Virus record (IMG/VR): IMGVR_UViG_3300012012_000067
Span: 1 to 32,101 of that record
DNA: 32,101 bases
Strand: one strand, 5' to 3'
From: a virus
In this document: positions 28,194 to 30,460 of the stretch, piece after piece
How positions within the stretch are numbered: the first letter of the stretch is position 1
Layout of the letters: each line of letters starts with the position of its first letter
Made by a program: the position numbers and the translations under genes
The notes under the pieces: model-generated
The model's input: only the letters and a program-made list of their open reading frames with translations
Told to the model about the DNA's origin: nothing
Databases searched by the model: none

Positions 28194-28377
28194 TGTCATC
28201 TCCTGTGTTGTTCCATCTTGCTCGATCTTTATCAGCTTGTGTATTAGGGAAAACCCGCATTTTTTCTGATCCGCACTCAAGACATACCCAGACTTCTATG
28301 GCTGTATCTGGGTATTGATCTATGACAGCAGGTGTGACAGGCCACTTATGAGCTTCTTGCATGCAACGGCAGATCAT
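28180..28377 (-). CDS. 65-aa putative zinc-ribbon protein
   Basis: This 65-aa protein has CRC near the N-terminus and CLEC in the middle (VWVCLECGSEKMRVFPNTQ), about 28 residues apart. The two Cys pairs with CLECGSE look like a zinc ribbon. The C-terminus is Asn/Asp/Arg-rich. The ATG overlaps the previous stop (ATGA). A 19-bp motif encoding the FPNTQ region recurs in two other early genes. No function is known. Confidence 0.68.
   Translation of the reverse strand: MICRCMQEAHKWPVTPAVIDQYPDTAIEVWVCLECGSEKMRVFPNTQADKDRARWNNTGDDNGLA
28238..28256. repeat. 19-bp motif, copy 1 of 3
   Basis: The plus strand reads TGTGTATTAGGGAAAACCC. It is nearly identical to copy 3 (18 of 19) and similar to copy 2. 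It lies inside the 65-aa gene, in the same orientation as the other copies. Confidence 0.6.
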
Positions 28378-28721
28378 GGCTTTTCCTTTGACAGCATGGC
28401 TTTTAGATTGGCAAGAGCTATCTTGCCTTTGTCTGTTGGCTCGTGTTTCTGGCGCAGTGCAACAAACTCGCGTTGCTCGACACGATCAAAGTCTTTGCAC
28501 ATGCCGATAAACTCGGAAAGGTTTGGTGGCCACTCTCGCTTTTGATGCGGCAGCGTTTCCATCACCTTTCTGAGAACATCAGGCTTAACAGACTGCAAGA
28601 AGTTCTCCCAGGCTTCTTTCGCTGGCATGATCGCGTTATCGTCATGCTCGAACATGACCTTGAACTTCTGCGCACCGTATAGCGCAACAAATCGCTCAAA
28701 AACTCGGGCCGCTAAGGACAT
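28374..28721 (-). CDS. helicase-loader-like replication protein (WPP motif)
   Basis: This 115-aa protein has an N-terminal helix (LAARVFERFVALYGAQKFKV), a middle with PAKEAWENFLQSVKPDVLRK, and REWPPNLSEFIGMC at about residues 62-75. The WPP-x-x-x-EF-x-x-x-C block is common in lambda P-like and related phage replication proteins that bring the host helicase to the origin. It overlaps the DUF1376 initiator gene by 26 bases, the same O-then-P order as in lambda. It is shorter than lambda P (233 aa), so it is probably a minimal version or a partner. Helicase loading is inference. Confidence 0.65.
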   Translation of the reverse strand: MSLAARVFERFVALYGAQKFKVMFEHDDNAIMPAKEAWENFLQSVKPDVLRKVMETLPHQKREWPPNLSEFIGMCKDFDRVEQREFVALRQKHEPTDKGKIALANLKAMLSKEKP

Positions 28722-29451
28722 TTAGCTTCTCCTGATAGTCAGCATCAATAACGTCAACAAAGTCAGGCTGACGTCTGCCTAGCAACAAATCGAGCTTGCC
28801 ATCCTTCTTTGGTTGTTGTGTATTAGTAGAAACCCGAGTGTTACGAACCCAGTTGCGCCAAGTCGCCATCCAGTCAGCTTTGGCACCCTTCTGACCAGGC
28901 ATGGCAACCCAATAATCCCGAAACGACTCGAACACCTCGTTCGGGTTCAGCTCTGGTCGATGCTGCTTGCAGAAGTCAAACCATTCGTCAGGCATCTCAA
29001 AATTTGGAAGCATGCGCGTACCACGCGCTGCGCTCTTATCTTTTATTTGGTTATTGGTTACTGGTTCTTGGTTATTGGTTAGTTGAACGCCTGTTGTAAC
29101 GCTGTTAGACACCTGTTCAACACCTGTTGAACTACTGTTCGACCGACGTTCAGCAGATGCCTTACCGGCGTTGCGTTTCTTGTGGATAAGTTGCCTGTAC
29201 TCTTCAATCTCTTTGTCGCATCGCGTGTGCCTCCAGGCCGATTCATCACGCTTGAAAAACGACAACAGGATTAACTCAACGGTCTTTGTGTCGGTTCCAA
29301 CCTGAAAAGCAAGCACCTCCAAATCGTCTGGTAGCGGCTTTTCGCTGTCGTAATACATCCACAACAGACGAAGGTATGCCATCGACTGAGCATCTGTCAG
29401 CCGTGACGTAGCTTTCAGGAAGTCACCAATATGGTGATGGTAGTAATGCAC
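28696..29451 (-). CDS. DUF1376 replication initiator-like protein
   Basis: This 251-aa protein starts at a GTG (HYYHHHIGDFLKATSRLT), with GGAG seven bases upstream; the longer frame is rejected. Residues 1-95 are the DUF1376 domain, with LTDAQSMAYLRLLWMYYD, followed by a linker of Ser, Thr, Asn and Gln (about 113-150). The C-terminal half (PDEWFDFCKQHRPELNPNEV, then WRNWVRN) is a helical domain typical of phage replication proteins. DUF1376 proteins are thought to be origin-binding initiators. The linker is coded by two blocks of tandem repeats that may be the origin itself. The stop overlaps the loader gene. Confidence 0.85.
   Translation of the reverse strand: MHYYHHHIGDFLKATSRLTDAQSMAYLRLLWMYYDSEKPLPDDLEVLAFQVGTDTKTVELILLSFFKRDESAWRHTRCDKEIEEYRQLIHKKRNAGKASAERRSNSSSTGVEQVSNSVTTGVQLTNNQEPVTNNQIKDKSAARGTRMLPNFEMPDEWFDFCKQHRPELNPNEVFESFRDYWVAMPGQKGAKADWMATWRNWVRNTRVSTNTQQPKKDGKLDLLLGRRQPDFVDVIDADYQEKLNVLSGPSF
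28817..28835. repeat. 19-bp motif, copy 2 of 3
   Basis: The plus strand reads TGTGTATTAGTAGAAACCC, inside the C-terminal part of the DUF1376 gene. It shares TGTGTATTAG and AAACCC with copy 1. Confidence 0.5.
29047..29081. repeat. five contiguous 7-mers, candidate origin element
   Basis: On the plus strand TTGGTTA occurs at 29047, 29054, 29068 and 29075 with CTGGTTC at 29061, giving five exact 7-base steps. The period is not a multiple of three although the region is coding. An AT-rich stretch (29033-29048) borders it. It looks like a DNA-level element inside the initiator gene. Confidence 0.8.
29091..29139. repeat. five 11-bp iterons, candidate replication origin
   Basis: CTGTT starts at 29091, 29102, 29113, 29124 and 29135, exactly 11 bases apart. 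The middle copies share a longer core (ACCTGTTCAAC and ACCTGTTGAAC). A degenerate sixth unit (ACGTT) lies at 29146. Eleven bases is one helical turn, so a protein would contact one face of the DNA. They code for the Ser/Thr/Val linker of the DUF1376 protein. Confidence 0.82.
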
Positions 29452-29621: not shown

Positions 29622-29816
29622 CTATCCCTGTGTATTAGGGATAACCCTTACTTTGCAACTGTGATGCAAGTTGTGTGATTTGCCGTTTCTATCAACACAG
29701 TCCCGCCGATAGCCAGATGGGGTTTCTGGCCTAGCAGCAACCAGCGTGTAGAACTCGCCAGTCCTGCAAAGCTCGAACTGCTCGCCAACTTTTACCCGTT
29801 GCAATCTGAAATACAT
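29622..29816 (-). CDS. 64-aa beta-rich hypothetical protein
   Basis: This 64-aa protein reads MYFRLQRVKVGEQFELCRTG, then EFYTLVAARPETPSGYRRDC and NLHHSCKVRVIPNTQG. It looks like a small SH3-like beta-barrel. The three Cys and the HH pair leave metal binding possible. The Shine-Dalgarno GAGG is well placed. Its last codons contain copy 3 of the 19-bp motif and a 7-bp perfect inverted repeat. No function is recognised. Confidence 0.7.
   Translation of the reverse strand: MYFRLQRVKVGEQFELCRTGEFYTLVAARPETPSGYRRDCVDRNGKSHNLHHSCKVRVIPNTQG
29629..29647. repeat. 19-bp motif, copy 3 of 3, in a perfect hairpin
   Basis: The plus strand reads TGTGTATTAGGGATAACCC. This copy overlaps a perfect inverted repeat, TATCCCT (29623-29629) and AGGGATA (29637-29643) around a seven-base loop. 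There is no T-run, so it is not a terminator; an operator or RNA structure is more likely. Confidence 0.6.
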
Positions 29817-29827
29817 TCACGCCCTCG

Positions 29828-30460
29828 CTAAACCGTGAAAAAAGCATCCATCGTGATAGGCGCAACCTCTCGTAACACCTGTAACACCTGCATTGCTATC
29901 TCTCTGTGTTCTTTCTGTGTAGTAGGGTCAAGCCTCTGCTTTAGGTAGAAGATCCAGCTACGCATGTTGCCGTTCATGTACATACGGCTCATTGTTAGCC
30001 CCTCTGGAAGCAGTGCCCTAGCCTGCTCTTTTGCGATACCAAGGTCTAACGCCTGGCGATATGCGTTTACCGCGGTGCGTTCAACCCTGTGTTGCAGACT
30101 CTCCCACTCCATCCTCAGCTTGTCATCTGTGCATTCCAGGCTGTTTTGTCTGTTCTTTGTATCCTGTAGCCGACACTCTCGGTTGACAATAGTCCCGAGC
30201 TTGCCAGCGTCTTGATAGCGTTGGCTGAACTCTTGAAAGCTAAACGACCTGTGTCTCAGTATCTGCCGACCTATGTCTCGCGTTGTCTCAATCTCGATAC
30301 ATACGTTAGCCATCTCGAACGGCGAAACGTGACCGTGTTCCATGAGATACGCAATCAGCCGAGTGTTCTCTGACCTTTGGTTGTCTGGATTAGACACTCT
30401 GGCCATGTACAGAATCTGTTGATCTATATCCGGCGTTGCCCACTGTAATCTCACTTGCAA
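29828..30460 (-). CDS. thyX: flavin-dependent thymidylate synthase
   Basis: This 210-aa enzyme makes dTMP from dUMP with FAD, NADPH and methylene-tetrahydrofolate, and supplies nucleotides for phage DNA replication. The ThyX signature is RHRSFSFQEFSQRY (about residues 69-82). EHGHVSPFEMANVCIEIE before it and the substrate-binding RSWIFYLKQRLDPTTQKE near the C-terminus complete the pattern. The start used is TTG with GGAG six bases upstream. A GTG two codons later forms a GTGA overlap with the YbcO-like stop and may be the real one. Length is normal. Confidence 0.95.
   Translation of the reverse strand: MQVRLQWATPDIDQQILYMARVSNPDNQRSENTRLIAYLMEHGHVSPFEMANVCIEIETTRDIGRQILRHRSFSFQEFSQRYQDAGKLGTIVNRECRLQDTKNRQNSLECTDDKLRMEWESLQHRVERTAVNAYRQALDLGIAKEQARALLPEGLTMSRMYMNGNMRSWIFYLKQRLDPTTQKEHREIAMQVLQVLREVAPITMDAFFTV

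Follow-up and report, generated by a model that had tools for sequence, protein, structure and literature searches.

The DNA studied here is the IMG/VR record IMGVR_UViG_3300012012_000067, positions 1-32,101, the whole of which (32,101 nt) was analysed and is called the window below. On its minus strand, as are the features of this locus given hereafter, lies an initiator-like gene (28696-29451; 251 aa) with a GTG start at 29451 and a reading frame open upstream as far as 29505. Its product belongs to Pfam DUF1376 (PF07120; 70.4 bits against a curated cut-off of 30.1, E=1.6e-19 in a Pfam profile search) and matches PHROG families of primosomal and replication initiation proteins. The N-terminal DUF1376 domain (29197-29451) is predicted to be a winged helix. 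The AlphaFold2 model shows helices and a beta hairpin, residues 11-90 averaging a pLDDT of more than 90, and VIA-align returned, for residues 18-81, Z scores of 6-7 to many winged-helix nucleic-acid-binding domains, matches that support the fold and the fold only. The winged helix was seen only via these weak structural matches: Foldseek gave no match in the PDB at E<=0.001, no PDB sequence relative of DUF1376 was found (best only E=0.76) and plasmid Rep families were absent among the Pfam matches of the initiator. In the model, residues 109-141 form a linker of mostly pLDDT <50, predicted to be disordered, followed by a small helical C-terminal domain (28699-29045); over residues 109-234, this part matches the replication initiation families PHROG 1408 and 1032, and its type differs widely in the alignment of relatives of the protein. 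The overlapping gene downstream (28374-28721; 115 aa) is a candidate P-like helicase loader, on a weak match to PHROG 109 (E=1e-4, residues 4-77).

Six 11-bp iterons, with a consensus of about nGTTnAACAGG, occupy positions 29079-29144 in the disordered linker and read, in coding-strand order, GGTCGAACAGT, AGTTCAACAGG, TGTTGAACAGG, TGTCTAACAGC, GTTACAACAGG and CGTTCAACTAA. A previous, sequence-only reading of this DNA had placed CTGTT repeats on the plus strand at 29091, 29102, 29113, 29124 and 29135 with an exact 11-bp spacing, and all five are there. It had added a degenerate sixth copy at 29146, which proved to be a weak ACGTT, a better in-register sixth copy being found on the other side of the series (CGTTCAACTAA, minus strand, 29089-29079). 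Its view that the repeats encode the linker between two protein domains agrees with the predicted domains and disorder, and its proposal that DNA function constrains this linker more than protein function does is supported by a synonymous-codon null: with the same peptide recoded 20,000 times using the phage's own synonymous codons, 20.8 +/- 3.35 lag-11 matches are expected and 35 of 55 are observed (P<=5e-5). Across the whole window, no other 66-bp stretch scores as high at lag 11 as the iteron region (36/55), the runner-up reaching 27. As a separate observation, a small ORF has a perfect 13-bp tandem repeat of 2.1 copies at its end (1509-1535).

Directly abutting the iterons, a second array is made of five 7-bp units AACCAAN (29046-29080; called by TRF at 29047-29081), which are, from 29080 to 29046 and with no gap after the iterons, AACCAAT, AACCAAG, AACCAGT, AACCAAT and AACCAAA. 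The span given earlier for the candidate origin (29047-29150) had covered this array but left it undescribed. Here, 25 of 32 positions match at lag 7 against 13.9 +/- 2.3 in synonymous recodings (P<=5e-5); since each array exceeds its synonymous-codon null, the peptide dictates neither the 11-bp nor the 7-bp repeat. The region 29030-29081, on the 3' side of the iterons, is 65% AT versus 52% in the iterons, and the 40-bp stretch at 29036 ranks, for low duplex stability, in the top 0.16% of the 40-bp stretches of the window.

The peptides encoded by such 7-mers reveal how strongly the codons are fixed. Among 78 peptides N[QH][EQK]P.T, from 71 genes of a sample chosen by the N-terminal domain (see below), Asn is AAC in 100% of cases (60% elsewhere in the same genes), Pro CCA in 96% (31%), Thr ACC in 99% (33%), Ile ATA in 100% (16%), Arg AGA in 100% (11%) and Glu GAA in 100% (56%). 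Regarding the free seventh base, T is used in 63/78 and 41/57 cases in the phases where it is allowed and in 0/78 in the third phase, in which it would give a TAA stop. Because the codons are nearly fixed and T is absent only in the stop phase, the heptapeptide NNQEPIT is, from these counts, best read as a translated TAACCAA repeat with the stop avoided.

Close relatives of the window provide a view of how these arrays vary. The sequence-only reading had proposed to see whether repeats and period are kept in related phages while the amino acids drift, and this is what was found: in L003, L137 and L139, whose proteins are 67-78% identical, six copies stand in exact 11-bp register while the peptide differs (RSNSSSTGVEQVSNSVTTGVQ versus RTNTSSTPVEQVPNTQPTDVQ). 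Likewise, L003, L137, L138, L139 and L146 all carry six in-register copies, mostly with the core AACA, followed directly by the 7-mer array, the peptide being altered. Compared with the window, L001 has two base differences in its iterons; both fall at less conserved positions, and one replaces Thr by Pro. In two other relatives, the segment 28960-29570 is replaced between colinear flanks of 89-92% identity (L004 and L005, 90-92% over 28959-28020; the long upstream flank in L005 only, 89% over 31289-29836): an HTH_36 O-like N-terminal domain with its own GAACGACGTTCACCCC repeats stands in place of the DUF1376 domain and both arrays, with a junction near 28959, beyond the 7-mers. N-terminal domain and repeats were thus exchanged as one cassette in L004 and L005, and an initiator-origin pair would be expected to change its DNA-binding domain and its repeats together in this way. 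The same neighborhood also contains four minus-strand copies of GGGTTnnCCCTAATACACA within 3 mismatches (28238-28256, 28817-28835, 29629-29647 and 29916-29934; 0.02 expected), three of which fall within ORFs and are read as V..NTQ in their frame, with similar copies in L001-L005.

An exact search of IMG/VR for (AACCAAN)4 returned at least 120 stretches, and 107 of the 120 ORFs bearing them among the matches listed contain Pfam DUF1376. Among the rest of those listed are two proteins from a different PHROG family of replication initiation, and in one of them (L078) the 7-mers come after 11-bp repeats of its own, GCGTTAGTAAC. Of 369 sampled bacterial genomes, only four carried (AACCAAN)4, in every case as a pure simple repeat. 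The permuted word (CAAACAN)4 was dropped as a control, its matches including a DUF1376 subclade with a variant array as well as, in other phages, arrays located just before a start codon. In this subclade (L298, L306, L311, L317 and others), which has AACCC-type iterons, (CAAACAA)n occupies the place of AACCAAN, so that the 7-bp pitch is kept with a different A/C-only sequence. In addition, (CAAACAA)n stands directly before a start codon (peptide MAKFI) as an unexplained 5' leader repeat of many viral contigs (L301, L303, L305, L310 and others).

As the first sample had been picked by the repeat itself, a second one was taken by the DUF1376 N-terminal domain alone. At least three 7-mer units are present in 101/159 of these genes, that is, in 28/80 genomic and 73/79 viral genes, the latter not being a DUF1376-wide rate because the viral sample consists of the nearest 80 of 591 relatives; the 7-mers begin about 125 codons past the start of the domain. 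In the 90 bp upstream of the 7-mers, 66 deduplicated array genes give z values of 22.2, 25.7 and 15.3 at lags 11, 22 and 33, against a synonymous null that uses pooled codon usage and in which relatives count as separate genes beyond an 80-85% identity filter. The lag-11 match is 0.490 versus 0.340, with 57 genes individually at P<0.05; after these three lags comes lag 12 (z 4.6), perhaps owing to families with 12-bp repeats. The 11-bp period is general among DUF1376 genes, but not all of them have the two-part layout, since 52/80 genomic genes are without three 7-mer units and a significant 11-bp period is found in only 18/47 deduplicated genes without the 7-mer array.

Between families, the iteron sequence differs while its period and place stay, and the 7-mer is nearly constant; by sequence comparison, the 7-bp array is the more conserved half of the layout. 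With labels set by us as simple motif rules, unlike iteron types were distinguished (GTTnAAC, TGCGAACGCAA, AACCCAG, the 12-bp AAATCAGATCTG and C-rich types), and these cluster on the tree of the DUF1376 domain, with 17 changes versus 38.9 when shuffled (0/200 shuffles), a tracking partly expected from linkage within one gene. Most GTTnAAC cores also keep one register to the 7-mers: of 129 such cores, 84 precede the first perfect 7-mer by 8 bp (mod 11), and another 34, by our reading of the residues 4 and 0, agree with this register on the assumption that the array opens with one or two imperfect 7-mers. In a distant DUF1376-like gene (L010:3001-3642; 28% identity), a second 11-bp run, of the GAACGGACGTT type, lies inside the DUF1376 domain, besides the linker copies.

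The sequences thus show that both arrays exist, that their order and register are fixed, that they are constrained at the level of the DNA and that they occur across many phages; they also show that iteron type tracks the N-terminal domain and that this domain and its repeats were exchanged together as a cassette. We consider it very likely that this region is a phage replication origin located inside the gene of its own initiator, with a layout like that of lambda O. Using the N-terminal winged-helix domain, copies of the DUF1376 protein would occupy the six iterons next to each other, with one copy for each helical turn, and the resulting complex would open the adjoining AACCAAN array, one strand of which is A/C-rich and its complement T/G-rich. 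On the opened 7-mer strand, the C-terminal domain, together with the helicase loader of the next gene, would place the host replicative helicase. A literature search found no paper linking DUF1376 to a replication origin, and the recurrence of the two-part layout in many phages points to a type of origin that is widespread and, it seems, undescribed. The GC skew, which had been proposed as a check, lends no support: in the window it follows the coding strand and is monotonic because nearly all genes are on one strand, and in four complete relatives its extremes fall off the array, at 4.7-18.6 kb from it. It carries no information for or against an origin.

Tandem winged-helix sites would equally suit autoregulation, and as the origin role is deduced from sequence, we have considered that the iterons are an operator by which the DUF1376 protein regulates transcription of its own gene, replication beginning elsewhere. 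We judge this very unlikely, as the sites are some 300-370 bp inside the gene, away from the promoter, and are followed by a low-stability 7-mer array for which an operator has no need. Also very unlikely, in our view, is that only the iterons are functional and that the 7-mers serve chiefly as a recombination hinge, a set of shared short repeats at which phages exchange N- and C-terminal domains. The 7-mers do lie at the domain boundary, C-terminal types vary widely and cassette swaps are seen; however, the junction observed in L004 and L005 falls past the array, and a hinge leaves unexplained both the 7-bp pitch kept with (CAAACAA)n and the preference for T at the free seventh position. Finally, although the linker is modelled as disordered and slippage can create tandem repeats, a low-complexity protein linker or slippage product devoid of DNA function is highly improbable, given that neither 11 nor 7 is a multiple of 3, that synonymous nulls are strongly exceeded across many divergent genes and that iteron type varies by family while period and place persist.

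Beyond the window, the origin reading can be extended to a phage-wide grammar, which we advance tentatively, as a proposal falling slightly short of probable. Interchangeable 11-bp iterons would be read by the matching DUF1376 domain, a near-invariant AACCAAT array would be read as a single strand by a shared loading machinery, and NNQEPIT would exist only because the repeat crosses the frame without a stop. The origin reading would give DUF1376, still listed as a domain of unknown function, both a function and a binding-site code. Origins could then be located directly from sequence in many phages and prophages, and that of the Rac prophage in E. coli K-12 would have a candidate place. Moreover, it would be a clear example of a protein sequence dictated by what its DNA does, even to the point of avoiding a stop codon, and would open the way to study origin opening and helicase loading in phages.

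Among known systems, iteron plasmid origins combine repeats near helical-turn spacing with an unwinding element. The window has such repeats and, in its 7-mers, a candidate unwinding element, and differs in having its repeats inside a coding sequence and in the absence of plasmid Rep families from the Pfam matches of its initiator. A parallel in layout, already drawn by the sequence-only reading and borne out here, is with the lambdoid O-type origins (lambda and the Stx phages P27 and 933W), in which tandem iterons followed by an AT-rich tract lie in the middle of gene O; the tract is described as essential to unwinding, whereas O can bind without it (PMC7466680). In the window too, the repeats are inside the initiator gene with the AT-rich tract 3' of the iterons. 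The P loader gene comes next in lambdoid phages (PMC7466680); the next gene of the window has the weak PHROG 109 match. The lambdoid protein has an O N-terminal domain and that of the window a DUF1376 domain: Pfam gives DUF1376 only, with no O-like N-terminal match, and O-like PHROGs match the swapped L004 version and not the window protein. The pitch is 11 bp in the window, while in Stx phages 13 residues come with two extra iterons, or about 20 bp per iteron; and, unlike the lambdoid AT-rich tract, the low-stability tract of the window is a precise 7-bp repeat common to many phages.

The unwinding region of the B. subtilis oriC, with its DnaA-trios and DnaD recognition element, similarly places short single-strand repeats beside double-strand initiator sites, and DnaD binds single-stranded DNA that carries two 5'-TnnT-3' cores (PMC10201434). 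Each TTGGTTN unit on the T-rich strand of the window holds one TGGT that would fit such a core. The B. subtilis region is chromosomal, DnaA-driven and built on 3-bp repeats; we regard the likeness as a lead only. Finally, an active but normally repressed origin, oriJ, has been reported for the Rac prophage (PMC3945230). In E. coli K-12, Rac ydaU (b1359) is a DUF1376 gene followed by the DnaC-like loader gene ydaV, and its linker contains GTTCAA/GTTGAA repeats (NC_000913.3, 1421506-1421589; L358). A DUF1376 gene with linker repeats is common to ydaU and the window, and a loader gene follows in Rac as a candidate one does in the window; the ydaU repeats differ in their uneven spacing (P=5e-4 at lag 23, P=0.09 at lag 11), and the AACCAAN array is absent. 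No mapping of oriJ to ydaU was found in the literature search, and we suggest the linker repeats of ydaU as a candidate site for this origin.
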